Origin: a virus
DNA: 64,000 nucleotides
Direction: 5' to 3' (one strand)
Virus record (IMG/VR): IMGVR_UViG_3300037116_000299
Span: 124,001 to 188,000 of that record
Notes under the pieces: model-generated
Told to the model about the DNA's origin: nothing
Databases searched by the model: none
What the model saw: only the letters and a program-made list of their open reading frames with translations
Part shown: positions 6,071-55,471 of the stretch, piece by piece
Layout: the number at the start of each line of letters is the position of its first letter
Position numbering within the stretch: position 1 is the stretch's first letter
Position numbers and translations under genes: made by a program

Positions 6071-6430
6071 ATGTGGAGTATCGCAATTGAAGCATCCATG
6101 AAGGAAGACGACGGCAGCTACGTGAAGGTCAACCTCAGCACCGAGTTCCATGGCGGCGAAGGCGCGCTGGACAAGCACCTCGCTGAAGGCGCCGATTCGG
6201 TGAACAAGTTCTTCGACCGTCTCGACGAAGAGCCGGAGCCGGAGCTTGAAGCAGTCCTGGGCGTATCCCACGCAGGGTGCGGTGGCCTCCGCGGAACACC
6301 ATTCGTCACCACGGGAAACATCACTCCTGCGGCCGGTGTCGACTTCCCCAATGGCTTCGCCACACTCGTTCAGTGCGAACCCCTGCTGCCCAACCAGCCC
6401 CGCATCATCTTCATCATCTCGGAAGACTAA
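6071..6430 (+). CDS. Hypothetical acidic protein
   Basis: A 119-residue, strongly acidic protein with AAAGGACAG before the ATG. A helical N-terminal part ends in a Glu/Pro-rich run (DEEPEPELE, about residues 51-59). A Gly-rich, beta-like C-terminal part contains two cysteines near residues 69 and 101. It lies directly upstream of the GroES-like gene in the same operon. The acidic composition could suit DNA mimicry or protein binding, but there is no direct evidence for either. Confidence 0.55.
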   Translation: MWSIAIEASMKEDDGSYVKVNLSTEFHGGEGALDKHLAEGADSVNKFFDRLDEEPEPELEAVLGVSHAGCGGLRGTPFVTTGNITPAAGVDFPNGFATLVQCEPLLPNQPRIIFIISED

Positions 6431-11207: not shown

Positions 11208-11672
11208 GTGTCCCAAGATACGAACCTCGGCTATCGCTCCAACTTCCCACTCACCAAGATCCTCGATCGCCTCTATCTCGGCGGCTTTCAGGACGCTCTT
11301 AACCTGCGCGGCCAGAACCCGCTCGGCATCACCCACATCTGCAACTGCACCAGCGAGAAGCTGGATCTGCCTCGTGCCAAGTTCAACATCATCCAGATGG
11401 ACCAGCTGGACGGTCACGAGTGGCACACCCAGAAGCTCTACGGCGCGGTCGACTGGATCCACCAGGCCCTGCGGGGCGGCGGTAAGGTCCTGGTCCACTG
11501 TCATGCGGGTGCGAGCCGCTCCCCTACCCTGGTCGCCTGCTACCTCTACACCTGTGGCTTCGGCTTCTACGAGTCCCTCGATGAGCTGCGCAAACAACGG
11601 CCCATCATCAACCCGGCGCCGGCAATTGTGATCAGCGCCAAGCGGGCCTTTGGTATCACCCCTGTCGCATAG
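11208..11672 (+). CDS. Dual-specificity protein phosphatase
   Basis: A 154-residue protein of the usual size for a minimal dual-specificity phosphatase domain; GTG start. The signature VHCHAGASRSPTLVACYL contains HC-x5-R with C98 as nucleophile and R104. The general-acid Asp may be in QMDQLDGHEW near residues 62-71. Opening residues (ILDRLYLGGFQDA) match the family's first strand. The enzyme would remove phosphate from Tyr/Ser/Thr or possibly from RNA 5' ends or phosphoinositides. In a phage it might reverse host kinase signalling or a kinase-based defence, which is inference. Confidence 0.75.
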   Translation: MSQDTNLGYRSNFPLTKILDRLYLGGFQDALNLRGQNPLGITHICNCTSEKLDLPRAKFNIIQMDQLDGHEWHTQKLYGAVDWIHQALRGGGKVLVHCHAGASRSPTLVACYLYTCGFGFYESLDELRKQRPIINPAPAIVISAKRAFGITPVA

Positions 11673-12301: not shown

Positions 12302-12883
12302 ATGAGCGCCACCAAGATTGTGCCACTGGTCAAGAAGATGGACCGCTGGGAGAGCCACTTCATGCAGACGGCCATGCTGGCCGCGACTATGTCGGACGAC
12401 CGTTCCACCAAGGTGGGCTGCGTCATCGTGAAGGAAAACGCCATCCTGGCAAGCGGCTGCAACACCTTTCCCCGCGGCTGCTACGTGAACGGTGAGGACC
12501 TGGAACCTCATCTGCAGATGAGGGAGTACATGGTCTCGGGAATCATCAATCCGGAGTCTCGTGCCAGGATACTGGCCCCTATCGAGGCCCGCCACGACAA
12601 GCCCGCCAAGTACCTCTGGACCGAGCACGCCGAGCGCAACGCCATCTACGGTGTTGCCCGCCGCGGTGGACCGGCCTTGCAGGGCTCTGCCATCTATGTG
12701 CCCTGGTTCCCCTGCGCTGACTGTGCCCGGGCCATCATCCAGTCCGGCATCTCCCAGGTAGTTGCCTACATGCCCGGCTTCGATCACCCCAAGTACGGCC
12801 CGGATTTCAAGGTAGCCGTCCAGATGTTCCGGGAGAGCGGGGTTGATGTTCGCTATGTGGAACGTCTGGAAGCGGCCAAGTAA
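12302..12883 (+). CDS. Deoxycytidylate (dCMP) deaminase family
   Basis: A 193-residue protein with the zinc-dependent cytidine/deoxycytidylate deaminase motifs: EHAERN (H109, proton-shuttling E111) and PWFPCADCARAI (C138, C141). The N-terminal MATMSDDRSTKVGCVIV region and the length match phage dCMP deaminases, which make dUMP for dTTP synthesis. The HxE to PCxxC distance is normal. No thymidylate synthase is in the window. The last 38 bases overlap the next gene in another frame. Confidence 0.85.
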   Translation: MSATKIVPLVKKMDRWESHFMQTAMLAATMSDDRSTKVGCVIVKENAILASGCNTFPRGCYVNGEDLEPHLQMREYMVSGIINPESRARILAPIEARHDKPAKYLWTEHAERNAIYGVARRGGPALQGSAIYVPWFPCADCARAIIQSGISQVVAYMPGFDHPKYGPDFKVAVQMFRESGVDVRYVERLEAAK

Positions 12884-13175: not shown

Positions 13176-13910
13176 ATGAGCACACCAGGGTTGATCCCCT
13201 CACCCGAAGACCTTTCTCCCTCCTGCACACCGGCACTTCCCGCCCCCAAAGTGAACATCAACAGCCTCATGGCTCGTGATGAGGACCTGGGGCTGACCAC
13301 GGAAGAGCAACAGGAGCTGGAAACCTACCAATCTGCCCTCATCATCCTCGGCCCCGCCGCCGGCGCCGTCCTCGTGTGTCCCGGCAACCAGGACAACGTG
13401 GCGGACGAGGACAAGTGTCCCTACTCGTCCAAGTGCCCCCTCCTGCGCGCCCGCAAGGCGCCCGCGGATCGACTCTGCCCGATCGAACGCAAGATCGTCG
13501 AAGAGCGCTTCGGGGCCTGGTGCCGGGAGATGGAAACCGAGCCCGATACCCTCAACGAGTCCAACCGCGTCGCCATCTCTGATCTCTGCTGGCTCGACCT
13601 GCAGGAGCAGCGCTGCCTGCACATCGTCGACAAGGGCGAGCAGGCCCGGCTCACCGTTACCAACCCGAAGGATGTGCACCCCGAGACCCTGTTGCCTATC
13701 TCGTGGGAGAAAGTCATCCATCCGAACGTCGAGCTTTTGGTACAGCTGCAGACGCAGCGCAGGATGATCTTGAAGGATTGGATGCTCACTCCGGAACAAC
13801 GCTGGAAGAAGGCGAAGGCGGAGAACAAGGGAACCGGGAAGGACCTGAGCAGCAAACAGTCCGCACGAGCGGACCTGCTGCGCAAGGGAACGGTTTCACC
13901 ACAAGTTTAG
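13176..13910 (+). CDS. Cys-rich virion- or packaging-associated protein of unknown function
   Basis: A 244-residue protein. Residues 67-110 hold a cysteine cluster: CPGNQDN, then KCPYSSKCPLLR, then RLCPIERKI. Further cysteines lie near 113, 138 and 147. The spacing suggests a bound metal or Fe-S site. The C-terminal 50 residues are strongly basic (RWKKAKAENKGTGKDLSSKQ). The protein is just ahead of the HTH/phosphoesterase gene and about 4.6 kb before terL, under a class 2 promoter. A small-terminase or packaging role is possible by position and basic tail, but the sequence shows no known terminase domain. Confidence 0.55.
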   Translation: MSTPGLIPSPEDLSPSCTPALPAPKVNINSLMARDEDLGLTTEEQQELETYQSALIILGPAAGAVLVCPGNQDNVADEDKCPYSSKCPLLRARKAPADRLCPIERKIVEERFGAWCREMETEPDTLNESNRVAISDLCWLDLQEQRCLHIVDKGEQARLTVTNPKDVHPETLLPISWEKVIHPNVELLVQLQTQRRMILKDWMLTPEQRWKKAKAENKGTGKDLSSKQSARADLLRKGTVSPQV

Positions 13911-15384: not shown

Positions 15385-15573
15385 ATGAACTCGTTCCGCG
15401 TCATCGAGGGTCAGATCGTCGAAGACATCTCCCCCTCCCAGGTACCACTCTTCCACCGCGCTGCATGGGAGATTGCTGAGAAACTCTGTACGAACGGAAA
15501 GGCCGACGTCACCAAGGTCTTCGACATCCTCGATTCGTACTTCCACATCCCGCCCGGCCAGCCTTCCCGTTAG
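15385..15573 (+). CDS. Small hypothetical protein
   Basis: A 62-residue protein. ATG at 15385 follows TAGGAGCCG at good spacing, ten bases after the phosphoesterase stop. The sequence (FRVIEGQIVEDISPSQVPLFHRAAWEIAEKL) suggests a short strand pair followed by two helices. No family is recognised. It lies between the phosphoesterase and the JAMM protease in the same direction. Confidence 0.5.
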   Translation: MNSFRVIEGQIVEDISPSQVPLFHRAAWEIAEKLCTNGKADVTKVFDILDSYFHIPPGQPSR

Positions 15574-15588
15574 CAGAAAGACAATCTG

Positions 15589-16023
15589 ATGCAGGCCATG
15601 AATATCTTCGTGGACGCAACCCAACAGCGCACCTTCAAAAGGCGCGCTGTTGCTGCGTTCCATAAGGACAAAGAGTATATGGAGGCTATCTTCGTCCGCC
15701 GGGGCGTTGGTGAGTTCCACGTCGTCAAGTTCATCAAGCTCAAGCTGCTCAAGCAGGGTCCCGAGATCGTCGACTCCGACGACGTCGAGTACCAGGCGCT
15801 GAAGAACGAGGCCAAGAACCTGGGGCTCGAGTTTGGCACCGTCCACACCCATCTCTACAACGACTCGGCTCCCTCGGAATGGGACCACAAAGAGAGCGTT
15901 GGCGAAGCCCTGGTTGGAGTCTGCTCCGTCTGGACCGACGAGAAGACGCAGAAGACCCACAGCCGTATCGACTTCTGGCAGCCTCAACTGCCCTGCAAGC
16001 TGAATGTTGTTCCCTCGAAATAG
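15589..16023 (+). CDS. Stand-alone JAMM/MPN+ metalloprotease
   Basis: A 144-residue single-domain protein. HTHLYNDSAPSEWD (H86, H88, S96, D99) is an exact JAMM motif, H-x-H-x7-S-x2-D. A Glu upstream (E29 or E32) can serve as the catalytic base. JAMM enzymes cleave isopeptide bonds of ubiquitin-like modifiers. In lambda-type phages a JAMM domain is joined to NlpC/P60 in a tail-tip protein. Here it stands alone, far from the tail genes. It could thus mature a virion protein or remove ubiquitin-like tags placed by host defence; both are inference. The start has no strong ribosome binding site; ATG at 15598 is an alternative. Confidence 0.65.
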   Translation: MQAMNIFVDATQQRTFKRRAVAAFHKDKEYMEAIFVRRGVGEFHVVKFIKLKLLKQGPEIVDSDDVEYQALKNEAKNLGLEFGTVHTHLYNDSAPSEWDHKESVGEALVGVCSVWTDEKTQKTHSRIDFWQPQLPCKLNVVPSK

Positions 16024-16221: not shown

Positions 16222-16737
16222 ATGGTATCGATTCCAGCTAACAGAGCACTCAATATCCTCGACAGTGGGATGACGAAAGCCGCCTCCATGTGGAATTCGG
16301 CAGGCGCATCAAGGGCTGCAGGCATCGCCCGACAAGTTTCCAGTGGCATGCACCTGAAGAGTTCCGGGTTCGCTCTTGCAGCGGGCGCGGGCGCCGCGGC
16401 AGGTGGCGCGGCCGGTTACGCAGCCAGCGATGGCGATATGAGCGGAGCAGCCAAGGGCGCGGCCCTGGGTGTACTGGGCGTCGCCGGTTTCCGCGGCATC
16501 CAGTCTGCCCGTTCCAGCTATAACGGCGGCCTTCTTCGCGATGGCGTAAGTTCAGCCAAGAGCTGGGCTTCCGGAAAGTGGCAGAACGGCATGCTGCAGG
16601 CTCGTCTGGGCGCAATGGAATTGGAGCAGCGCAGCACCAGCGCCGCTGTGACGGCGGGGTCCGTAGGCAAACGGATGAGCAGCCGCGGTGCGGCAGAAGC
16701 CGATCGCGCGTTCTGGCGTGCCAATCCGAACGGGTAA
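16222..16737 (+). CDS. Glycine/alanine-rich putative virion membrane protein 1
   Basis: A 171-residue protein, first of three related genes. Residues 49-95 are a run of Ala and Gly (FALAAGAGAAAGGAAGYAA, later ALGVLGVAGF). These form glycine-zipper-like hydrophobic segments that could span a membrane or pack as helices. The flanks are polar and Ser-rich. The C-terminus is basic. Similar Ala/Gly segments occur in both giant virion proteins later in the window. It may be an ejected or internal virion protein. Confidence 0.5.
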   Translation: MVSIPANRALNILDSGMTKAASMWNSAGASRAAGIARQVSSGMHLKSSGFALAAGAGAAAGGAAGYAASDGDMSGAAKGAALGVLGVAGFRGIQSARSSYNGGLLRDGVSSAKSWASGKWQNGMLQARLGAMELEQRSTSAAVTAGSVGKRMSSRGAAEADRAFWRANPNG

Positions 16738-16740
16738 ACC

Positions 16741-17466
16741 ATGACCGATCCCGTCTTTGCCGGCACCAAGGCAGCGCAGTTCCTGAAATCCAAGGGCATC
16801 TTCGTCGCCGCCGCGGCCGCCGGCGCCGGCGGCATCGCCATTGGAGCGGCACGCGGCAGCAGTCAGCATCAGGACGCTTCACCCACCACTCGCGCAGGCC
16901 TGGCGGCTCATCATGCGGTTGGCGCTGGCCTGATTCTGGCCGGAGTCGGAGCTGGAGTCTACGCCGCCAAGGGAACGCTTTGGAAGGGCGGCTACAAGGC
17001 CGCGACCGGTGCTGTCGAAGCGGGAGGCAAGTCCTTTACCGCAGCGACCCGGGAAACGGGGATAGCCAATACCTTTCTGAAACACCCCATCGTTCCTACC
17101 GCGATCGGTATGGGACTCGGCGGGCTCGTCGGGGCCCAGATGGACAAAGACAATCCCGCCGCGGGCGCCGCGATGGGGATGGTCGCAGGCGGAGCTGCAG
17201 GTCTGGCACTGCGTAGCGGCCGGAACATGGCCAAGAGCTGGAGCAAGACACCTCGGGTTGGCAAAGCAGCCTTGATTGCCGGCGCAGCGATCGGCGTTAC
17301 TGCAGCAGCGCACGCTTTCACCCACGAACAGTCTTATGCCGCTGATGACACCGCCGTAAGCGATGGCCGCGGCAGCTACGAGGCAACCGCGGGACCTCGA
17401 GAGCGGATGCAGTCGATGAATGCGACAGGATATCTGGTCTTCGGTCTCAACGCGCGTAGGCACTAA
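16741..17466 (+). CDS. Glycine/alanine-rich putative virion membrane protein 2
   Basis: A 241-residue protein with about four glycine-zipper segments (GIFVAAAAAGAGGIAIGAARG, AVGAGLILAGVGAGVYAA, IGMGLGGLVGA, ALIAGAAIGVTAAAHAF), each 15-20 residues. They suggest a membrane-inserting or pore-forming protein. The last residues (MQSMNATGYLVFGLNARRH) look like an accessory tail. It starts three bases after its upstream neighbour and shares a base with the next gene. No known family is named. Confidence 0.5.
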   Translation: MTDPVFAGTKAAQFLKSKGIFVAAAAAGAGGIAIGAARGSSQHQDASPTTRAGLAAHHAVGAGLILAGVGAGVYAAKGTLWKGGYKAATGAVEAGGKSFTAATRETGIANTFLKHPIVPTAIGMGLGGLVGAQMDKDNPAAGAAMGMVAGGAAGLALRSGRNMAKSWSKTPRVGKAALIAGAAIGVTAAAHAFTHEQSYAADDTAVSDGRGSYEATAGPRERMQSMNATGYLVFGLNARRH

Positions 17467-17990
17467 TGCTCCTGAACCAGGCATCCCGGGATGGACTCAA
17501 CGGAGCAGCGCAGTCGATGCGCATGGCTCCGTCGCGTGCGTTCTGGTCAGGCATGAAGCTGAGCGGTATCGGAATCGCCGCGGGCGTCCCGATGATCGCG
17601 TATGAAGCAGGGCATGCCCAGAGGGGCGAGGTTTTGCCCACCGCCCTGGGCCGCACCGTAGGCCTGATGACCTTCCCCGCGCTCAGCGGCGCGCTCGCCG
17701 CCGGCGGCGCGATGGCGGCCACCGCGCTAGGTCTCTCGGTCCCGGGCATTGGAGCCTTTGCCGTGTTGGCTTCGATCTACCCCGACGTGATGATCGGCAA
17801 TTCGATCAATCGCAGCATCCGGTCTCTCACCGCGGCCGGGCGCCAGGTTCACCACCTCGAGTTCGGTGGCAGCTTCCAGGACACCGACACCGCGCGCCAG
17901 ATGCGCAACTACGCCCTTTACGAGATGAGCGGAGCCACCTCCGCCTCCCGTCGTTACCTGGGACAGGAAGCTGCCCTGATGCACCGATAA
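17466..17990 (+). CDS. Glycine/alanine-rich putative virion membrane protein 3
   Basis: A 174-residue protein with ATG overlapping the previous stop by one base. Hydrophobic segments lie near residues 30-48 and 66-107 (FPALSGALAAGGAMAATALGL and FAVLASIYPDVMIG). The C-terminal segment, TARQMRNYALYEMSG then RRYLGQEAALMH, matches a pattern I know from large phage virion proteins: A-x-x-M-R-x-x-A-x, later LG-x-EA-x-x-MH. This supports a virion role for the whole trio. Confidence 0.5.
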   Translation: MLLNQASRDGLNGAAQSMRMAPSRAFWSGMKLSGIGIAAGVPMIAYEAGHAQRGEVLPTALGRTVGLMTFPALSGALAAGGAMAATALGLSVPGIGAFAVLASIYPDVMIGNSINRSIRSLTAAGRQVHHLEFGGSFQDTDTARQMRNYALYEMSGATSASRRYLGQEAALMHR

Positions 17991-18509: not shown

Positions 18510-20636
18510 GTGAGCACTGGATTCGTTCCGTTGGCCGATCTTGTGGCCGGTCTTCCTGAGGAAGATCGGTCCTTTCTCGCCAACGCCATCAAACGCGATC
18601 AGAAAGAACACGCCGAGGGCAGCGACAAAGCTGGCATCATTCGGCGGATGCAGTGCGCCCAGTGCCAGAACTGCCAGGAGCACTACCGCACCAAGCATCC
18701 AGGCAAGCCCTTCGTCATCAAGTGCTTTGGCGTCTACGACACCCCTGACTATGAGGCGGCGAAGGTGCGCATGCACGCCGACGGCGAGGAGATGTCGATC
18801 GACGAGATCCGGGAGATCTATGACCCCGCGTTCTGGGGCTCACGCCACATCGTCGTCAAGAATGACGACGGCGACATCGTCTCTTTCATCCCCCGTTTCT
18901 ACCAGGAAGAAGCTCTGCGCTGCACCTCGCCACGCAAGATCGACCGTTGGGGCCGCGGCCTGGGCAAGACCATGAGCGGCGTGGTGGAGGAGATGCACTT
19001 CCTCTGCAACAACAAGAACACCCAGACCCTGGTGCTCTGTCCATCGGCCGCGCAAGCTCAGTTGTGGTGGGATGAGATCAACTTCCAGGTCGAGAACTCG
19101 CCGACCCGTGAGTTCGAGATCTTGCAGAAGAAACAGCAGCCGTACGCCATGATCCGCTTCGGCAATGGCTCGGTCCTGACCATCTTCACCGCCGGATCGA
19201 AGTCCGGTAAGGGCGCTGACTCCATTCGATCGCAATCCCCGCGCCGCATCCGGCTCGAGGAGCAGGACTTTCTCGCCGACAAGGATTACCAGGCGATCAT
19301 GCCGCTGTTGCGGCGCTTCAAGAACGTCACCTTCCACGGTTCCTCGACGCCGACCGGCAAGCGCGAGATGTACTGGCAGATGTGCAACAAGCTGGCCGAG
19401 TACCAGGAGTTCTTCCACCCGGTCATGGATCACCCGGACTGGGGCAGTGAAACTCTCAATGAAGAGGCCTGCTTGGCCGAAGCCAAGACCATGGACCGCT
19501 ATCGCCATGAGTGGCTGGCCGAGTTCGGCGATCCCGAGGCCGGGCTCTTCAAGAGCGCCTTCGTCGACGCGGCGATGATGCCGTTCACCATGCGGTCTTC
19601 GATGTACTCCCCGGACAAGAACCATGTGATGGGCATCGACTGGAACGGCAAAGGCACCGGCACCCGCATCGTGGTCACCCAGTACGATCCTTCGACCCGC
19701 AAGCGGAGAGTGGTGCATCACGAGACCATCGACGACCCCAAGTCGACGACCCGCAAGTCCATGGCCCGCATCGTCGAGATCAACAAGATGTGGCACTGCG
19801 ACTACGTGTACGTGGACGCGGGGTTCGGCTTTGTCCAGGACGAGTTGATCAAGGAGATCGGCGTCGCCGCCGGCACCTTCGACCCTGACACCGCCAAGCT
19901 GAAGTACATCAAGGTCATCGACTTCGGCGCCAAGCTCGAAACCAACGCCATCGTCCCCAACCGGGACCCCAATTCCAAGTACCTGGCCGATCCGAAGGAC
20001 GACATTCTGAAGCGCCGCACCAAACCCTTCATGGTTGAAGGCATGGTCATGGCCTTCGAAGCCGGCCTGGTCGAGATCTCGCGCGAGTACAACACCCTCG
20101 AAGAGCAGCTCCGCGGCTACCGGGTCAAGACCTGGACCAAGGGCGGCGCAGCCGACACCTACATCACCGACTCCGAATCTGGCGACCATGACCTCGACGC
20201 CTGCATGCTGTCGATGCTGGGGATCGAGCTGAACTACGGCCTCTGGCACACCAAAGAATCCATCCGGCGTTTGGTACAGATCGCGCACGTGTCAGGCTGG
20301 GGACTGCCGGCAACTGTGGTCAATACCCAGCCGGCGGCAGCGGACGATCCAGAACAGAGTCCAGCCGCGCGGATTGAGCAAAACCGGCAACTCCGCCGTC
20401 AGGCGTCCGGGGTTCCTTCCCGCGTTACTGCTGCCCAGACGGGAACATCGCTGCAGGAGAAATACCGGCTGATGTACCTCTCCAAGGGCAGCTACATTGC
20501 CGCCCCCACCGGAGGCGGCGCTGCCAGTTCCAACGGACGCGTACCCTCCCGGACCGGAGTCTTCCAGGGAGCCTCGCGGGGAGGTTCGCAGTACGGCAAC
20601 CCGCAGACTTCCCGGACTCGATTCAGGAGCTACTAA
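18510..20636 (+). CDS. terL: Terminase large subunit
   Basis: A 708-residue packaging motor. The ATPase part has a Walker A variant GRGLGKT (G148-T154), then the adenine-binding and motor segment LVLCPSAAQAQLWWDE and an acidic Walker B-like IRLEEQD. The RNase H-like nuclease part shows its three acidic sites: MGIDWNG (D377), VDAGFG (D436) and DHDLDA (D559 to D563). The N-terminus has a small Cys cluster (QCAQCQNC, residues 48-55). The C-terminal 110 residues are low complexity. The start is GTG with AGGA upstream. The protein cuts and packages DNA through the portal encoded 2 kb downstream. Confidence 0.92.
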   Translation: MSTGFVPLADLVAGLPEEDRSFLANAIKRDQKEHAEGSDKAGIIRRMQCAQCQNCQEHYRTKHPGKPFVIKCFGVYDTPDYEAAKVRMHADGEEMSIDEIREIYDPAFWGSRHIVVKNDDGDIVSFIPRFYQEEALRCTSPRKIDRWGRGLGKTMSGVVEEMHFLCNNKNTQTLVLCPSAAQAQLWWDEINFQVENSPTREFEILQKKQQPYAMIRFGNGSVLTIFTAGSKSGKGADSIRSQSPRRIRLEEQDFLADKDYQAIMPLLRRFKNVTFHGSSTPTGKREMYWQMCNKLAEYQEFFHPVMDHPDWGSETLNEEACLAEAKTMDRYRHEWLAEFGDPEAGLFKSAFVDAAMMPFTMRSSMYSPDKNHVMGIDWNGKGTGTRIVVTQYDPSTRKRRVVHHETIDDPKSTTRKSMARIVEINKMWHCDYVYVDAGFGFVQDELIKEIGVAAGTFDPDTAKLKYIKVIDFGAKLETNAIVPNRDPNSKYLADPKDDILKRRTKPFMVEGMVMAFEAGLVEISREYNTLEEQLRGYRVKTWTKGGAADTYITDSESGDHDLDACMLSMLGIELNYGLWHTKESIRRLVQIAHVSGWGLPATVVNTQPAAADDPEQSPAARIEQNRQLRRQASGVPSRVTAAQTGTSLQEKYRLMYLSKGSYIAAPTGGGAASSNGRVPSRTGVFQGASRGGSQYGNPQTSRTRFRSY

Positions 20637-43030: not shown

Positions 43031-44878
43031 ATGTACAACAATCTGCCTGGGATTCTGGTCAACACCGTTGATGGCGGCCTCGCCGTTCAGCGGCAGCCGG
43101 TGGCCGACTCCACTCTTGTCATCAGCACGTCCGGCCAGGGCGTCGCCAACCAGCCTTACCAGGTTGTCGATCGCACCAAAGCGGCTCTCGAATTCGGACT
43201 GCAGGGCAACCTGATCCGGGGCATGGAAGAGGCTGCATCGAATTCCGACAACCTGATCCTGTTCCGCATGGGTACCGCTCCGATGACCCTCACTGGCATC
43301 GGCGCAGATTCCACCCCGGGCGCTTTGACTGCAGGCTTCGGTTTGGAGTTCGGCCAGGTTCAGGCCACCGCCGCGACCGACTACAAGGTCTGGTACAAGG
43401 CCGGTGTGCTCGCCGTTTACTTCGGCGAGGCTCTGATCTATTCCAACGACCCGCTGCAGACGACCGACAACGGCGACCTCACCATCGACGGCTTGATCGC
43501 CGGCAATGCAGGTCTGCAGATCGGTACCGGAGCCAGCGCGACCCTCGCCAATGCCATCACGGTTCAGGCCGCAGCGGCTCTGGCAGGCGTAGCCCATCAG
43601 GCGGCTCCGACGCTGACCGCGTGCGTAACCGGCCTCGGCCTCACCGGCCGCCAGCAGTTCGTCGCCTTGCTCAAGGCGCTCGACTTGCTCCAGGGCTTCC
43701 AGGTCAAACAGATTGTGGTTCCGGAGGCGCTCTTCAATGCGCCGAACGTGGCCTTCTATGTCGCAGGCGACGCTACCACGTCCCTCAACAACCCGGTCAC
43801 CAACCCGAGTGCGCTCGACTGGCTCAAAACCTCAGCCGATGCGTATGGCAACCTCACGTTCCAGTGGGCGTCCGAGACAACGGACTCGAACGGAACAGCG
43901 GTTGCTGCCTTCGCCGGTGTGACCCTTGCGTCGCGCAAGGCCGCGGGCTTCTCCGAAGTCAACTGGGGCTACACCCTCGCCAACTTCTGCGCGTCGGTGA
44001 GCATGCTCGGCAACGAGTGCATTGGCTTCATCGGCACGACTGGCCCTGCTTCCTACAAGCTGGTCGATGTGCGCAAGTGGGTGGGTTACCTGCCCAAGTA
44101 CGACGCCAACGGAGTTGTGACCACGGCCGGTGCAGGCCTGCTCGGCATCGCCTACACGGCGGGCACGGACACCGCGCATCTGAATCCCCTGTGTGTCGAC
44201 TTTGCTTCCGGTTCGCGCAAGCCTGGCTTCTTCCAGACGGCGAGCGGACAGTACGATGATGCCGCGGAACAGGACATCAACCAGAATCCGATCGACATCG
44301 GCGCCTACCTGCATGTGGTTGCAGACCAGGCCATTCTTTCGAATGGCTTTGCCACCAACTATGTCAGCAACATCGCGACGTTCGTTGCCGGTATCTGCGG
44401 CATGCTCGACGAGAAGCGCGCACTGACCAACCTGTCGGTCTCCGGCATTCAGCAGCTGCCGGGCCTGACCTACACACCCGGCCAGCTCGATGCGCTCACC
44501 CAGGTCAACATCAACGTGCTCAAGACCAAGACCACCGGTCCGGCGCTGTTGCATGACAAGACCTGCGCCACCGATGCCAGCGACTACACCCAGGTGCTGC
44601 GCGTCCGCATCAAGGGCCTGGTGGTTGCCACCATGCTTGCGATCGGCGACCCCTTCGTGGGAGCCAGCTCGCTCGACGGTCTCCAGCTCACCTCGCTGAA
44701 GACGGCGTTGGACACCGGACTCTCCGAACTGTCCAAGCGTGGCTACATCAACAGCCCCAGCGTGGTCATCAAGACCACAGCGGCTGAACAGCGCATCGGT
44801 CACGCCGACCTGTTCCTGAAGTTCCACCCGGCCGACCAGATGGTGCAGCTCAACGCCTATGTGGGCCTGACCCGCTAA
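43031..44878 (+). CDS. Contractile tail sheath protein
   Basis: A 615-residue protein with GAGGAGA before ATG. It begins with LPGILVNTVDGGLA, typical of sheath N-terminal arms that enter neighbouring subunits. The C-terminal part has LRVRIKGLVVATMLAIGDPFVG and ends LNAYVGLTR, like the conserved sheath C-terminal domain. The middle 100-500 holds variable surface domains. Its position before a tail tube gene and the matched length of both point to the sheath. This is the main evidence for a contractile tail. Confidence 0.75.
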   Translation: MYNNLPGILVNTVDGGLAVQRQPVADSTLVISTSGQGVANQPYQVVDRTKAALEFGLQGNLIRGMEEAASNSDNLILFRMGTAPMTLTGIGADSTPGALTAGFGLEFGQVQATAATDYKVWYKAGVLAVYFGEALIYSNDPLQTTDNGDLTIDGLIAGNAGLQIGTGASATLANAITVQAAAALAGVAHQAAPTLTACVTGLGLTGRQQFVALLKALDLLQGFQVKQIVVPEALFNAPNVAFYVAGDATTSLNNPVTNPSALDWLKTSADAYGNLTFQWASETTDSNGTAVAAFAGVTLASRKAAGFSEVNWGYTLANFCASVSMLGNECIGFIGTTGPASYKLVDVRKWVGYLPKYDANGVVTTAGAGLLGIAYTAGTDTAHLNPLCVDFASGSRKPGFFQTASGQYDDAAEQDINQNPIDIGAYLHVVADQAILSNGFATNYVSNIATFVAGICGMLDEKRALTNLSVSGIQQLPGLTYTPGQLDALTQVNINVLKTKTTGPALLHDKTCATDASDYTQVLRVRIKGLVVATMLAIGDPFVGASSLDGLQLTSLKTALDTGLSELSKRGYINSPSVVIKTTAAEQRIGHADLFLKFHPADQMVQLNAYVGLTR

Positions 44879-45775: not shown

Positions 45776-46702
45776 ATGTCCATCTCCTTCCCTACCGTAT
45801 CTCCCGACCAATGCCTGCTTACCTGTGGACTTGAGACGACTTCGTCTCAGGTCACTTCGTTCGTGGCGATGGGTCTGCCTGCGGACGCCGGTCCTACTCC
45901 GGCAGCCAGTGCGCCGGTGCTCGCCCCGCCAACAGCGCAGGACGCCGCGGCGCTCGCGGCTTACACCCCGTCGAAGACCAATACCCTCGACGGAAAGGGA
46001 ACGGTTGTAACGCCGCAGTGGAACCCCGGCGCCGCCGGCGCCTTCGACTATCCCACCGATGCGATCAATCACACTCCGAACCCAGGGCTGACCACGTCAG
46101 GGTCGAACTACGATGACATGACCTACACCGGGTCCGACCTGAAGGTCATGCTCGAGGTTGCAGGCAGCGGAAGCACTCCGGGATCGGTACGGCTGTCCAA
46201 GCGCCTGGCGGAGTTGACCACAATCACCGTCTCGGTCCATCGGGTCAAGTCCCCGGTACCTGCCTGCGGGTACATCAACACCAAGGGCTGGGCGCGCGGG
46301 CGGCGCACGATCGCCGGCACCATGGTCTTCACCAAGTTCCTGCAGGATGTGCTGGCCGAGTTTCTCACCTCCGCCGCCTTCACCTCCGATCTCTCCAAGG
46401 ATTCCCAGTACGTCAAGGTCGATCAGCTCCCGCCCTTCAATCTGACCTTCCTGTTCTCGAACGAGTACGGTCACCAGAGTTACCAGCGCCTGATCGGTGT
46501 TGAGTTCGTCACTTCGGGTGACGTCTACTCCATCCAGGACATGCTGAGCGAACAGACGGTCTCCTACGTCTGTGCCGACTTCACTCCTCTCCTCCCCATC
46601 TCCCAAAACAGTCAGCATGTAGCGGCAGCGTCCAACCCGATCACCGCTGCTCAGCGGACCGTGGCGGACGTGCTCAACGCCGCCGCAACACGGCAGGTCT
46701 AG
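45776..46702 (+). CDS. Second tail tube-like structural protein
   Basis: A 308-residue protein. After a Pro/Ala-rich N-terminal part, residues 115-230 contain MTYTGSDLKVMLEV, ITVSVHRVKSPVPACGYINTKGWARGRRTIAGTMVF. The order of strand, RG-x-R-x-IAG and strand is the same as in the tube protein at 44988 (RNKRGIAGSLIW). A paralogue or a tube-cap/initiator is likely. The start has no strong ribosome binding site and lies two bases after the terminator tail. Confidence 0.6.
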   Translation: MSISFPTVSPDQCLLTCGLETTSSQVTSFVAMGLPADAGPTPAASAPVLAPPTAQDAAALAAYTPSKTNTLDGKGTVVTPQWNPGAAGAFDYPTDAINHTPNPGLTTSGSNYDDMTYTGSDLKVMLEVAGSGSTPGSVRLSKRLAELTTITVSVHRVKSPVPACGYINTKGWARGRRTIAGTMVFTKFLQDVLAEFLTSAAFTSDLSKDSQYVKVDQLPPFNLTFLFSNEYGHQSYQRLIGVEFVTSGDVYSIQDMLSEQTVSYVCADFTPLLPISQNSQHVAAASNPITAAQRTVADVLNAAATRQV

Positions 46703-46704
46703 CC

Positions 46705-48222
46705 ATGGCCATTGCAACGATCCGATTCAAAGTCGTCAATCACGGCAACTTCCTTCCCGTTCAGGGAGCAACCGTGTCCAGTGGCGGCGCGTCCGCATCC
46801 ACGGCGAGCGACGGCACGACAACCCTGAAGGTGACCATCGGCTTGACCAACCAGTTCACGGTGGCGGCCCCTACCTATCTGACCAAGTCCGACTGGATCA
46901 CCTTTTCCGAGACCGACGTCAACACCCTCTATCTGGACCGCGATCCGAAGTATTTCGCCAACTGGACCAAGCTGGTTGACTCGAAGACCAACCAGCCGAT
47001 CGCCGGGGCGACGATCTACATCAACTCCAGCCGGGCCGGCACCTCGGATTCGACCGGCGCCGTGTGGGTCACCGGGCCTGTCGGCGCGGTATCCGTGCGC
47101 GTAACCGGCACCGGCTACGATTCCACCTTTCCTCAGACTGCGACCGGCCCCCAGGGATTCCCCGCACAACTCAGTGTGACGGCGACGCCGCCGTCGCCTC
47201 AGCACCTGACTCTGACGGCGGGCGCGGCTACTGCCGCAACCGCAGGCTGTACCCTGTTCTTCGCCACGGCAGCTGCCGGCGGCCCCGCTGCAGAACAGTT
47301 GACCTGCGCCAACGGGCAGGCCACGACAGCCAACACGTATCTCCCAGGTCAATACCTCGTCACTGCTTCCCAGACGGGTTATACCAGTTCGGACACGCCT
47401 CTCACCGTCACCGCGGGCGTCACCCAGTACGCGGTCCAGCCTCCAATCCTGGATGCGGCAGCTTCGAATGTAAAGGCAGGCGACGCTCAGAAGGTCCCCG
47501 CGAACGGAGGATCCGTCTCCGCCGGGCCGACAACCGCGTCAAGCGGGATTGCGACTCTGACCTCGACCCCTCCGGACTACGAGTGGATCTACCCGAACTC
47601 CCAGGATGGGAAGTATTTCACCGCCACCCAGGCGCGCATCTACGTGGGCAACCTCTTTATGGACGAGCTGGTGCAGATCCAGTTCACCTACCAGGGCAAC
47701 CGGATCCCCATCTACGGCTACAGTTCTGAACTGGCCGACGGCTTTGGAACCGGCAGGCGTTTGGTACAAGGCCAGCTCGCGCTTAACTTTGTCACTGAAG
47801 GCTACCTGTACACCGTCTTGAAAGAGTTCGCCAAGATGGCAAGCAACCGACCCGCGTCGGTGCAGGATGCCAACATCGCCGATCTGACAACCACCGTCCA
47901 GCAGTACCAGACCCTGGCTGCACAGAAGGACGATCAGACCGACCAGCTGCAGGCACTTTCCATCAAGATCCAGTCGCTGGCCGATTCACTTGGGCCCAGC
48001 GGACTCGATCTTTACACTGCGGGCCGGACCGTCTCGACGCAGAGTAAGTCGCCCCTCGCACTGTCCATCCCGTTCGACATCCGGTTTGAATTGACCGGCG
48101 CTGGTCGTACGGTAACGAAGATCATCCGGAATTGTCTGCTGACCGCGAACGATCAGGTCTATGACCAATCCGGCTCAACCTTGCTTGACGCCTATGGCTT
48201 CGTTGCACGAAGCCTGGACTAA
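46705..48222 (+). CDS. Tail protein with carboxypeptidase-regulatory/Ig-like repeats
   Basis: A 505-residue protein. Residues 10-290 contain at least three repeats of the carboxypeptidase-regulatory or PEGA type. Each has a pattern like PIAGATIYINSSRAGTSDSTGAV (near 93-115) and LPVQGATVSSGGASASTASDG (near 17-37). Residues 300-370 resemble the tube-like domain (ARIYVGNLFMDELVQIQF, later LNFVTEGYLYTVL). So surface Ig-like decoration is fused to a tail-core domain. The rest forms a helical segment and a final strand domain. Confidence 0.6.
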   Translation: MAIATIRFKVVNHGNFLPVQGATVSSGGASASTASDGTTTLKVTIGLTNQFTVAAPTYLTKSDWITFSETDVNTLYLDRDPKYFANWTKLVDSKTNQPIAGATIYINSSRAGTSDSTGAVWVTGPVGAVSVRVTGTGYDSTFPQTATGPQGFPAQLSVTATPPSPQHLTLTAGAATAATAGCTLFFATAAAGGPAAEQLTCANGQATTANTYLPGQYLVTASQTGYTSSDTPLTVTAGVTQYAVQPPILDAAASNVKAGDAQKVPANGGSVSAGPTTASSGIATLTSTPPDYEWIYPNSQDGKYFTATQARIYVGNLFMDELVQIQFTYQGNRIPIYGYSSELADGFGTGRRLVQGQLALNFVTEGYLYTVLKEFAKMASNRPASVQDANIADLTTTVQQYQTLAAQKDDQTDQLQALSIKIQSLADSLGPSGLDLYTAGRTVSTQSKSPLALSIPFDIRFELTGAGRTVTKIIRNCLLTANDQVYDQSGSTLLDAYGFVARSLD

Positions 48223-52300: not shown

Positions 52301-54401
52301 AGGTATCCTGGCCGAGTACACCGGACTCTACGGATTCATCGCCAGCAGCGCCTACCAGGCCATCTTCCCAGGTGTGAACCAGGGCAAGGACGTCTACTTC
52401 CAGGGCTCCCGTCAGATGGACAATTTCTCCCGCCGCTACTACGAGCGGGAGCTGGGCGCCGGCATCGCGCCGTCTCCCTCGATGAAGGAACACTTCGGAT
52501 ACACCGAGCCCTTCCGCCGATTTGTCCAGCGGGAAGACTTCTCTCCCCAGGCCAACCCACTGCGCAACCAGATGCCTGGCTGGCTGCCCGGAGCCGACTA
52601 CCTCACCAACTTCCAAATCGGCGATCCCTTCACCAAGGTCGACGAGGGCTATGCCCGCCTGCCTGGCGCCGGCTACGAGGCCCTGCATCCAGAGTTGAAG
52701 GGACTCAAGCCCGAAGACTACCCCGACATCAACAAGCTGGCCATCCTGGGTGACGTAGCCCCGTACTCGCGCGAGTACAACATCTTCCGTTCGAAGGTAG
52801 GCGCCGACTCCGCCGACAACACCGAGCTGCGCATCGAGTACGAGAAGATCCTCGACCGCGTCCGGCAGACCAGGGAGTCCGTCATCCGGATGGACGCTCG
52901 TCGCTTCACCGAGCCTGTCGCTGAGCTTGAAGGCACCGTCGAAACGGCGACGCCCGGCGGAGTCACCCTCAAGGAACACCCCGGACAACTCTTCCAGTTC
53001 TCGTCCGTGAGCATGAGTGCCGCCAGCATGTCGGCGAGCATTCTCGGCGAGCACAACAATCTGACCCGCGCGGAAGTTGCCGGACAGGTTGACGAGCGCC
53101 ATCAGAAACTGCAGGACTACCTGGCTGGGATGGTTGGATCCAAAGCCCACCTGACAGTCCCCGATGGAACACTCGGCCGGGCGGAGCGCGCACGAGCCGT
53201 CATCGAAGTCGATGGCAAGAACCTCAACCGGGAACTGATCGACCAGGGTTACGGCCAGTATCAAGAACGCCTGGGCGGAGCTGAAGCGCAGGAGATGTTC
53301 GGCGCCGCCGGCAAGACCATGGGCTCGATCGCTGAGGCCCTCGCCTTCCAGGGCGACTCCGGCCGGCTCAACCCGATGCGCTACATCCCCACACCAGGCC
53401 ACACCAAGGCCTGGCAGGAGCGCACGCCACTCGCCCAGTACATGACCAACGAGGTTGTTGGCACCCGCATGCGGCGGTGGGAACGGCCCATCCATGACTT
53501 CCTCATGCCTTACGCACGAGGCGCCTGGCAGCGGATGAGCGGTAAAGCTCTCATTCCTGAGGATGTACAGGTTCGGCGGGATCTGAACACCCTGGGCGAC
53601 ACCATGCAATATCTCCGCGGACTCAATGCGGAGACCTCGGGGACCTATACTAATAAGAAGCAGAGGACTTCTGTCGGGGCCAACCTGTTTGCCGCGTCGA
53701 CGTTTGTAGCTTCTACCCTTCCCGCCCGCGAATCCCATTACTTCCGCCAGTTCCTCAACGAGACGGATCCCGAGAAGCGGGCCTCGATTCTCGAAGTGGC
53801 TTCGACCGAGATGCAGCGCGCCCTTTCCGCGCAGTGGGTCGCTCAGGAAGCTCGCATTCAGGTAGCCAACGGCGAAGACCCTGGCCCGATCGGCGAAGGC
53901 GGCCGGCTCTACACCCAGGCCAACGTCGAGGACTACAAGAAAACCGACACCAGTCTGGACTACGGCAATTGGTTGCGATCCAAGGAGATCGCCGACTTCT
54001 TCTCCCGCACCGGGTTTGCTCTTCCCGAACAAGGATCAGCTGCATACGACGAAGCTTTGGATTATGAGGACGTCAAGCTGAAACTGATTCAACAGGAAGG
54101 GTACGACTCCCATGACTTCAACATCTTCGATGACCGGGCAGCCATGCTGTGGCGCAAGCCGTATGTGGATGGCGCTGTCCGCGAACTCACCAGTGGTGAC
54201 GATCGTTCCCCAGAACAGTTGCGGCGGGCGGTCGAACAGCTGATGACAGCCTCACACGACGCAAGATCGGATGTTCGAACTGCGGTACACGCAAGCCACA
54301 CGAATCGCGCGAGCATTCGAGTGGATGTATCTGTCGACGAGAGCGACGCACTGGTGAGAGACATTCGCCGCAACCCCGACAAGTATGCGCAGGAGACGTA
54401 A
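49371..54401 (+). CDS. Giant virion protein with N-terminal DnaQ-like exonuclease and C-terminal SNase-like segment
   Basis: A 1,676-residue protein. Residues 5-250 hold all DEDDh exonuclease sites: FDLEASS (D9, E11), GGHNIGSYD (D151) and AHNALDDTLGN (H241, D246). Residues 304-326 form a Gly/Ala membrane-like helix. Further hydrophobic stretches lie near 710-745 and 790-805. Residues about 1180-1310 look like a staphylococcal-nuclease fold: GTVETATPGGVTL, then RAERARAVIEVDGKNLNREL and IDQGYGQYQERLGG. The gene's place, directly after assembly chaperones, is that of the tape measure. The membrane segments and enzymes suggest a protein ejected into the host. Start GTG, AGGTAG upstream. Confidence 0.7.
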   Translation: MPNPFIVFDLEASSFNTGLANSFLNGDGRGADLIQEFVRTSSDPSRLQQHPLFQAHQRSQILQVYATGGAFQGGDEGWVRPFDEMRRFNRPIGNSLYDESDFALRHSLLSKAQGGRNYEAQRVEQLYQGISDSIRSHGKAVLGGHNIGSYDLWRLEYATYQHDSLRNRRGWLADQVRTGRLMLRDSDAELLGAASAFARQDADFAAHHLKGATDVASAKWVSGHNLTNITEAMGYRNTNAHNALDDTLGNVAFFGDIDSGKAFTPESLRSIFPRQAAAATREAAPLRATVAEAATEARSLFTGGEKKFLIGAAVAAAAAAVGSLIAHSTRRDRQTQITGLGETGMGAQGRHRLTDFGSGYQGLSTSPNPFQLESEAAYNPLVRALGVGVTGSALYGAHRYMLATSPNYAKRLHGAALKFEQYSPMHLGRTFAASERFSSYLPSKLVFTRGMLTNDDGTLNEVGQTFDRQFSAAGHKFDFLNEVTEDNPLVFEGRRRAGSGSLQLQGRGIDIETRFVPSEGRLAGTAARLDQALVNHPIRRSQAQSSVKQAWGDFQAVRRSQRISNASPWSEVASAEKLYRPFYTQGHVADPADELFSQARNAWTRLRVEGLEATERTQRLFAEAGFGLKAGTWNKAAHLPFVGEGGMLNQMLTKRVAPLVLAATALGWLDYKLGHPSNKIVDLGLKANVLRADLTDMVPGARGVTDFYDKVTPGSQYGPLALPLAGAFFGGVYHYGKLLGGKYADEAARTLGARILPEMKGLRNFTAKGGKLVSVEGASAIWKSLGAPGKGAAIGLAAMALFVPGMLGSRKSGADLRDIYSGSEPIPIRSGRWWEVGSTPYEGGRIKEWRPHWSVLRKSHAEDISLYGSEKDKWKHNPILHPLKYARDPYWLEKQHYYDRPYPVASPAFSNVPLIGPLLAATVGKLVKPPVRMHEENWNGEDYTLYSTRLEPKGPGAVAPPRPEDEFTLRHALKQEVGILAEYTGLYGFIASSAYQAIFPGVNQGKDVYFQGSRQMDNFSRRYYERELGAGIAPSPSMKEHFGYTEPFRRFVQREDFSPQANPLRNQMPGWLPGADYLTNFQIGDPFTKVDEGYARLPGAGYEALHPELKGLKPEDYPDINKLAILGDVAPYSREYNIFRSKVGADSADNTELRIEYEKILDRVRQTRESVIRMDARRFTEPVAELEGTVETATPGGVTLKEHPGQLFQFSSVSMSAASMSASILGEHNNLTRAEVAGQVDERHQKLQDYLAGMVGSKAHLTVPDGTLGRAERARAVIEVDGKNLNRELIDQGYGQYQERLGGAEAQEMFGAAGKTMGSIAEALAFQGDSGRLNPMRYIPTPGHTKAWQERTPLAQYMTNEVVGTRMRRWERPIHDFLMPYARGAWQRMSGKALIPEDVQVRRDLNTLGDTMQYLRGLNAETSGTYTNKKQRTSVGANLFAASTFVASTLPARESHYFRQFLNETDPEKRASILEVASTEMQRALSAQWVAQEARIQVANGEDPGPIGEGGRLYTQANVEDYKKTDTSLDYGNWLRSKEIADFFSRTGFALPEQGSAAYDEALDYEDVKLKLIQQEGYDSHDFNIFDDRAAMLWRKPYVDGAVRELTSGDDRSPEQLRRAVEQLMTASHDARSDVRTAVHASHTNRASIRVDVSVDESDALVRDIRRNPDKYAQET

Positions 54402-55471
54402 TGCAACCGCACAGCATCACCCTTGACCCCGAGCTGCACAGCGTTGATATCCGCGAGATTGAACGTCGCCTGAAAGAAAGGGTGGCTGGTCAAGATCCGG
54501 CCATTTCACAGTTGGTGGGCTTGCTCGAAACCTACTTTGCCGGCTACAACGACCCTAATGCTCCTGTGGGCGTGGTGCTTGCCCTGGGCCCGTCCGGGAC
54601 CGGCAAGACCAGTCTGATCGAAGCTCTGTGCGAGATACTCTACGACAACCCCAAGGCGCATGTTCGGATGAACTGCGCGGACTTCAAGGAGTCCCAACAG
54701 ACCCAGCGGATTGTCGGAGCGCCTCCGGGCTACATCGGTTTCAAGGACAAGTCGATCGAGACGTATTTGACCCAGGAGAATCTGGACCGCCATCACACGG
54801 CGAAGATGAAGCTCAGCGTCGTCCTGCTGGACGAGATCGAGGAAGCTCATAGCGCCCTCTATGACTACCTGCTGGCCGTATTCAATGACGGCGAAGGCAT
54901 GGTCAGCGGCAAGCTGGTCAACTTCCGCAACACCCTGTTTGTCATGACCTCGAACCTGGGGACCTCCACGAAGTCCAGCCTGCTTGGCTTTACGGCCGAC
55001 CAGGTCGCCGCCCATAACCACCAGAACGAAGCATCGATCCGCAAGGCAGTGCAGGAGCATTTCAAGTTCAAGTTCCTGAACCGCATCGACGAAACCATGA
55101 TCTTCGAGGCGCTGTCCAAAGAGACCATCGACCTGATCTTCGACATGCAGGTGTGCCAGATCCGCCGCAGGCTTCTGATCTCGAAGCAACCCGGTCCGCA
55201 GTACGTGTTCAAGATCCAGGACGATGCCCGCCAGGAGCTGGTCCGCCGCGGCTTTGACATCAAGTTTGGAGCCCGTCCCCTGAAGCGTGTCCTCCGCCGG
55301 GTCATTACCGACAAGCTGGCGGCTCTGATGCGCAGCGGCCAGGTGGAACACGGCGACCTGGTGGTGATCGATTACACCGGCATTCGCTTCATCTACGAGA
55401 AATACAACGGTGACGAAATCGGCCAGCTCTCGGACCCGCAATGGGCCGAGTTCAGCAGGATCATCGACTAG
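54401..55471 (+). CDS. Single-ring ClpB/ClpA-type AAA+ ATPase
   Basis: A 356-residue protein. It corresponds to a Clp second ATPase ring (D2) plus its C-terminal domain. Walker A is GPSGTGKT (G63-T70). Pore loop is GAPPGYIGF. Walker B is VVLLDEIEEAH. Sensor 1 is MTSN. The arginine finger lies in FKFLNRIDE. Sensor 2 is FGARPLKR. There is no N-domain and no D1 ring, and no clear IGL/F loop for ClpP docking, so it would unfold or remodel proteins without degrading them. The gene lies exactly between two giant virion genes (one-base overlap with the first). Assembly or remodelling of those proteins is the natural hypothesis. Confidence 0.8.
   Translation: MQPHSITLDPELHSVDIREIERRLKERVAGQDPAISQLVGLLETYFAGYNDPNAPVGVVLALGPSGTGKTSLIEALCEILYDNPKAHVRMNCADFKESQQTQRIVGAPPGYIGFKDKSIETYLTQENLDRHHTAKMKLSVVLLDEIEEAHSALYDYLLAVFNDGEGMVSGKLVNFRNTLFVMTSNLGTSTKSSLLGFTADQVAAHNHQNEASIRKAVQEHFKFKFLNRIDETMIFEALSKETIDLIFDMQVCQIRRRLLISKQPGPQYVFKIQDDARQELVRRGFDIKFGARPLKRVLRRVITDKLAALMRSGQVEHGDLVVIDYTGIRFIYEKYNGDEIGQLSDPQWAEFSRIID

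Follow-up and report, generated by a model that had tools for sequence, protein, structure and literature searches.

JAMM zinc proteases are the kind of enzyme that removes ubiquitin in human cells, and they usually act on isopeptide bonds or on the tails of ubiquitin-like proteins (Ubl). The Prok-JAB/JAMM-MPN+ enzymes PfJAMM1, AfJAMM, Rpn11, and BRCC36 share their fold and the E/HxHx7SxxD active site with P0001, the protein described here. Unlike these enzymes, P0001 scores below the Pfam cut-off, is encoded by a phage, and has no E1 or Ubl partner that we could find. Cap3 of type II CBASS, in which the catalytic glutamate is E38 (PMC10097602), and the Bil-type deubiquitinases are likewise small JAMM isopeptidases, of bacterial origin, with a catalytic Glu. 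They are encoded in operons together with E1/E2 and their target, whereas neither was found for P0001 in its phage.

JAB domains are also known from phages. The lambda-type tail protein K (JAB-NlpC) differs from P0001 in its fusion to NlpC/P60, its location in the tail operon, and its different PHROG. A JAMM-type protein of a jumbo phage is found in the PRTRC_A/ThiF pair (gp194, gp195) of Bacillus phage KLEB27-3, which shares TerL and portal ancestry with the phage analyzed here. This protein has 356 amino acids and is paired with an E1-like ThiF gene, in contrast to our phage, in which no E1 was detected. In KLEB27-3 (L035, 2148-4398), the ThiF-like E1 gene directly adjoins the PRTRC_A-type JAMM gene, and the two possibly form a phage-encoded conjugation/deconjugation pair. 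The closest counterpart of P0001 in an annotated phage is gp271 of Tunturiibacter phage Tunturi_5 (XOB77714.1), a stand-alone JAMM protein with the same active site and an adjoining phosphoesterase gene. It differs from P0001 in its length (161 amino acids), a wider gap from the second His to the Ser of the motif, its polyvalent-protein neighbors, and its annotation as 'minor tail protein'. A survey of jumbo phages does not mention JAB/JAMM proteins in its main text (PMC7824862).

Active site, family, and predicted fold of P0001

The gene for P0001 lies in a stretch of 64,000 nucleotides from a virus genome, referred to as the window (Table 1). The exact JAMM motif in a single-domain protein of 144 residues, described in an earlier sequence-only reading, was found as stated. 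The catalytic glutamate, which that reading had left unnamed, is E29. In all family rows covering them, E29, H86, H88, and D99 never vary, and position S96 is occupied by Ser except for Gly in two rows. We assigned E29 and not E32 as the catalytic residue, since E29 is invariant and E32 is not conserved (Ser in two relatives). P0001 therefore contains both the glutamate and the HxHx7SxxD zinc motif of JAMM/MPN+ proteins. The window contains the bare pattern a second time, as a chance match in a frame without a gene (position 6406), so the motif alone is weak evidence and no proof. Unlike the bare motif, homology is decisive for the JAMM identity of P0001.

This homology was not easily seen. 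Pfam Prok-JAB (PF14464) aligned with P0001 over the motif at 12.6 bits, below its curated cut-off of 25 bits, and relatives of P0001 reached 30-43 bits. Searches against PHROGs, NCBIfam, and PADLOC gave no matches, no relative turned up by direct tblastn among 50,697 phage records, and phmmer with P0001 alone against the PDB gave only chance matches. A single weak tblastn match to p405 of Ochrobactrum phage OC (E=0.5) was dropped, as it has no JAMM motif. Simple searches and the first alignment-based scans retrieved only identical copies (three at 100% identity). Tunturi_5 gp271 came up through phages sharing the neighboring phosphoesterase and is 28% identical to P0001 over 134 amino acids (pairwise E=1e-11). 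The wider family was collected with a hand-made degenerate DNA pattern derived from P0001 and gp271, followed by an alignment scan, which yielded stand-alone JAMM proteins in IMG/VR contigs, with many large ones of up to 456 kb among these, as well as family members in Terriglobia MAGs. Leave-one-out HMMs picked out P0001 from the 1,898 ORFs of this virus with E=2e-23 to 5e-21 (runner-up 0.008-0.07). When its closest relative, L082, was left out as well, P0001 was still found among these ORFs with E=5e-21 (runner-up 0.04). The 214-kb record contains only this one JAMM protein; a weak second match from the same virus (L015, 505-702) lacks the motif and was rejected. The free-standing phage JAMM proteins collected here are an overlooked family, whose members curated models miss or barely see. 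A further stand-alone phage protein (L083, reverse complement, 1357-1788) carries HTHx7SExD without the FxRRA N-terminus typical of the P0001 family and possibly represents a second phage JAMM lineage.

An AF2 model of P0001, calculated with the family alignment as input, reached a mean pLDDT of 92.1 and a pTM of 0.85. Its top Foldseek matches in the PDB were MPN/JAMM enzymes (E down to 5e-8), among them BRCC36 of BRISC (TM 0.76), Rpn11-ubiquitin, an archaeal Rpn11 homologue, PfJAMM1, AMSH, and two bacterial Ubl systems (BubCD and 8tyx). P0001 is hence predicted to adopt the MPN fold, and a search of PDB sequences with the family profile matched JAMM/MPN proteins, too. In the Foldseek comparison, bacterial Ubl-deubiquitinases were no closer to the model than JAMM proteins from eukaryotes or archaea. 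The viral Foldseek library contained other phage JABs, including a stand-alone one of 123 amino acids in Brevibacterium phage Cantare. Because of this protein, stand-alone phage JAMMs are not new as such, and together with gp271 it softens the earlier statement that phage JAMM domains are mostly fused to NlpC/P60. Judged by family, active site, and predicted fold, P0001 is a catalytically complete JAMM zinc metallopeptidase, which we would expect to be active.

A phylogenetic tree grouped P0001 with the fragment L082 (92/87), next to the main clade of phage sequences; support is modest, and the P0001 branch is long. The L082 gene is located upstream of a terminase gene, like the one in the window. 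Near the JAMM gene and upstream of the terminase, both loci also carry a gene for a dual-specificity phosphatase-like protein (window 11208-11672; L082 1158-1682).

Virus genome and gene neighborhood

The source record is a 214,300-bp IMG/VR virus, a jumbo-sized myovirus belonging to the large soil-type bacterial viruses. It encodes TerL, portal, major head protein, and tail sheath; TerL and portal are distantly related to those of Acinetobacter phage ME3, Bacillus phage KLEB27-3, and Moorella phage MTATph1. Two consecutive genes behind the tail sheath gene (45776-46702 and 46705-48222) match PHROG 9206 (major head protein), an odd place for it. An AAA-type ATP-dependent protease-like gene (54401-55471; PHROG 4871, E=6e-73) is flanked by two genes for proteins of ~1,650 amino acids without Pfam match. 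In addition, ARAGORN predicted several tRNAs in the genome and a tmRNA whose tag peptide is unusually long (L014 15102-15521, corresponding to G000 75102-75521).

No ThiF/E1 protein was detected in 13 JAMM-encoding phages, that is, this genome and 12 relatives, several of which are fragments, so that this absence is not absolute. The JAMM protein serves no phage-encoded conjugation system visible to these models, and the lack of a detected E1 argues for an enzyme acting in trans.

Table 1. Features at the P0001 locus (window coordinates)
Feature	Coordinates	Strand	Evidence
dCMP deaminase	12302..12883	+	PHROG 174 E=2e-38
Possible small terminase, weak	13176..13910	+	PHROG 9231 E=0.13
Calcineurin-like metallophosphoesterase, 459 aa	13995..15374	+	PHROG 20266 E=4e-65; Metallophos 20.8 bits
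62-aa ORF between phosphoesterase and JAMM	15385..15573	+	no Pfam match
P0001, stand-alone JAMM (MPN+) metallopeptidase, 144 aa	15589..16023	+	sequence, profile, predicted fold
Catalytic glutamate E29 codon	15673..15675	+	invariant in covering family members; aligned to Glu of JAMM structure 2kcq
JAMM zinc-binding motif H86-T-H88-x7-S96-E-W-D99	15844..15885	+	sequence, family alignment
Three consecutive Ala/Gly-rich proteins, probably membrane-active	16222..17990	+	sequence; second: weak Gly-zipper match
Terminase large subunit	18510..20636	+	PHROG 675 E=6e-7; tblastn to ME3, MTATph1, KLEB27-3 terminases

The genes follow each other in the order given in Table 1, with one further ORF between the Ala/Gly-rich proteins and TerL. 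The sequence-only reading had correctly placed the JAMM gene about 25 kb away from the tail genes (25-27 kb, with the sheath at 43031), but it had missed both TerL, 2.5 kb downstream, and the metallophosphoesterase, 0.2 kb upstream. The latter is the sole PF00149 match in the 214-kb record and contains HTH- and HNH-repeat-like segments at its N-terminus (HTH_7 and HNH_repeat, both sub-threshold). The 62-aa ORF does not end in Gly-Gly and hence shows no sign of being a ubiquitin-like protein.

In four of five clades of the family, a calcineurin-like phosphoesterase gene is found within ~3 kb of the JAMM gene (window, Tunturi_5, L066-L071, L074, L072/L073, and L075/L076). Profiles support it in Tunturi_5 (PHROG 704), L074 (PHROG 1745, T5 A1-like DNA transfer protein, E=2.5e-167), and L075 (PHROG 284 exonuclease, E=5e-42). 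In L066-L071, L072/L073, and L076, it was called by metal-binding motifs and by pairwise similarity among these proteins; in L072/L073 the motifs were read by eye, and profile matches were restricted to HTH or weak HNH. Under random placement, a phosphoesterase in four of five clades has P ~1.7e-4, a post hoc value that treats the clades as independent; moreover, Tunturi_5 itself was reached through a phosphoesterase match. No adjacent phosphoesterase is present in L079. The reverse test did not generalize: among 49 loci with one phosphoesterase type, a JAMM gene was nearby only in the six already known, and the annotated phages with a window-type phosphoesterase have no adjacent JAMM gene. 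Therefore, the phosphoesterases do not need the JAMM protein, though the JAMM genes tend to adjoin phosphoesterase genes, and our confidence in an obligate pair is lowered. Among the papers of the library searched, none united phage, JAB domain, and metallophosphoesterase.

The remaining neighbors mostly belong to DNA metabolism. They include dCMP deaminase in the window, primase and DNA polymerase A in L075, thymidine kinase, clamp loader, and PhoH in L079 (the latter two labels read from the sequence), and, in Tunturi_5, genes for helicase, RNR, and replication initiation. In Tunturi_5, L066-L071, and L074, the JAMM gene is flanked on one side by the gene for an InPase protein, which in most cases also has RelA/SpoT, and on the other by the gene for a giant protein; ART-PolyVal, GNAT, and NUDIX domains are present in gp273 of Tunturi_5. 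The polyvalent-protein neighborhood of one clade includes a weak match to the anti-CBASS protein Acb1. Two contigs, L114 and L115, share the phosphoesterase, the InPase-RelA protein, and the giant protein with this Tunturi_5/L066-L074 clade, and no JAMM gene was found in them. Its slot is filled by a SprT-like HExxH zincin of 132-134 amino acids with the sequence HEMIH (L114 4799-5197 and L115 4825-5229, both on the minus strand), which matches the SprT-like profile above the cut-off in L115 (28.1 bits) and below it in L114 (22.5 bits). SprT-like zincins are not known to act as Ubl deconjugases. An unrelated zinc protease in the same slot suggests that proteolysis, and not ubiquitin chemistry in particular, is needed there. 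The window phage and the remaining clades gave no match to InPase or ART-PolyVal, the marks of this polyvalent-protein module, so that the argument from slot exchange carries over only so far.

Some Terriglobia chromosomes carry solo genes of the family. Six clear matches (E<1e-20) were obtained in 150 sampled genomes of one Terriglobia order, two of which had already been found. By eye, a phosphoesterase gene lies next to the Terriglobia JAMM gene of L105, which we treated as chance; the other three loci checked do not have one. Prok-E2_B gave no match in five JAMM-bearing Terriglobia genomes, and the control was silent, too. In one Terriglobia MAG contig (L085, 3117-4477), a terminase small subunit gene is located directly upstream of a family JAMM gene, and this contig is probably a prophage remnant.

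Possible functions

We tentatively propose that the JAMM protein is an accessory peptidase of a phage module for DNA handling and host takeover, typically encoded beside a calcineurin-like phosphoesterase. Zinc would be held by H86, H88, and D99, with E29 as the general base, and the enzyme would hydrolyze a peptide or isopeptide bond in trans, on a protein not conjugated by the phage itself. Most likely, a host or DNA-associated protein would be stripped or cleaved or an injected phage protein processed, so that substrates may include host conjugates, DNA-bound proteins, and injected phage proteins. Meanwhile, the cooperating phosphoesterase, a nuclease-type protein often with a DNA-binding N-terminus, would act on nucleic acid. 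The proposal builds on the family with its intact active site and fold, the failure to detect an E1, the recurrent phosphoesterase neighbor, the DNA-metabolism context, and the slot exchange in relatives. Since a SprT-like zincin takes the slot there, the job seems to need a zinc protease, not specificity for ubiquitin. Against it stand the one-sided linkage, L079 without a phosphoesterase, the by-eye assignment in L072/L073, and the solo copies in Terriglobia without the module.

The sequence-only reading had suggested that P0001 could reverse Bil- or CBASS-type conjugation. A counter-defense deconjugase would block antiviral conjugation by removing the ubiquitin-like modifiers of the host (Bil-type) or, in type II CBASS, conjugated CD-NTase, a function we consider possible but not probable. 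It would agree with an intact, free-standing JAMM protein whose nearest folds are BRCC36, Rpn11, and PfJAMM1, encoded away from the tail genes, outside the tail JAMM PHROGs, and by phages without detectable E1. The patchy occurrence of the family fits as well, since for jumbo-phage peptidases with such a distribution a host-directed role has been argued (PMC7824862), and so does the location of one clade amid polyvalent-protein genes with the weak Acb1 match. The specific link to Bil or CBASS found no support: no likeness to Cap3 or Bil deubiquitinases was seen beyond the fold, the fold itself is no closer to bacterial Ubl-deubiquitinases than to other JAMM proteins, PADLOC remained blank, and no operon with E1/E2 and a Ubl or CD-NTase was found (no ThiF in this genome or the 12 relatives). 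The neighbors are mostly DNA-metabolism genes, with injected polyvalent proteins in one clade, and a SprT-like zincin can exchange into the slot. Moreover, in one type II CBASS system Cap3 increased immunity (PMC11153139); as Cap3 can support rather than block CBASS, a phage JAMM protein is not automatically a counter-defense factor. Reversal of either conjugation is possible, but our findings point to neither in particular.

Rather unlikely is a processing protease that would cleave proteins of the virion, or polyvalent proteins that are injected, into functional fragments, although zincins have been proposed to process polyvalent proteins (PMC5512222). The flanking InPase and giant-protein genes in Tunturi_5, L066-L071, and L074, the domains of gp273, the SprT-like protease in the same slot, and the co-direction of the window gene with packaging and head genes all speak for this function. 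But the window phage and the other clades have no detectable InPase or ART-PolyVal, and general polypeptides are not the usual targets of JAMM enzymes. Very unlikely is a RadC-like JAB domain acting on nucleic acid instead of protein. A role in DNA metabolism has been assumed for RadC-type JABs (PMC5512222), and the phosphoesterase/replication context would suit them, but the Pfam matches are Prok-JAB and JAB, the JAB_RadC profile gave no match to P0001 at E<=10, and the PDB fold list consists of JAMM/MPN proteins, with phage RadC models only at 0.009-0.05. We regard as extremely unlikely a tail-tip assembly protein resembling the JAB portion of lambda K, which the label of gp271 would imply. 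Siphophage tail tips do contain JAMM-NlpC proteins (PMC1779556; ANB28 protein K), but the window virus is a myovirus with its sheath gene 27 kb away, P0001 has no NlpC/P60 fusion, and neither P0001 nor gp271 matches a tail PHROG. The gene for gp271 lies in the replication module of Tunturi_5, more than 11 kb from the tail genes and on the opposite strand, which disfavors a tail role despite the label.

The phosphoesterase neighborhood together with the SprT-like exchange suggests a class of substrates other than those of the tail or of Bil/CBASS. A further reading, in our view unlikely, is a protease-phosphoesterase pair in which the JAMM protein would remove conjugated or DNA-bound proteins while an Mre11/T5-A1-like partner works on the DNA, with JAMM and SprT-like proteins being interchangeable. 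If true, such a pair would be the viral equivalent of a system for DNA-protein adduct repair or for the removal of antiviral tags from phage DNA or proteins. One member of the family comes from an isolated phage, Tunturi_5, which can be cultivated with its host Tunturiibacter, and the use of a deubiquitinase-type enzyme by a phage without its own E1 therefore becomes testable.
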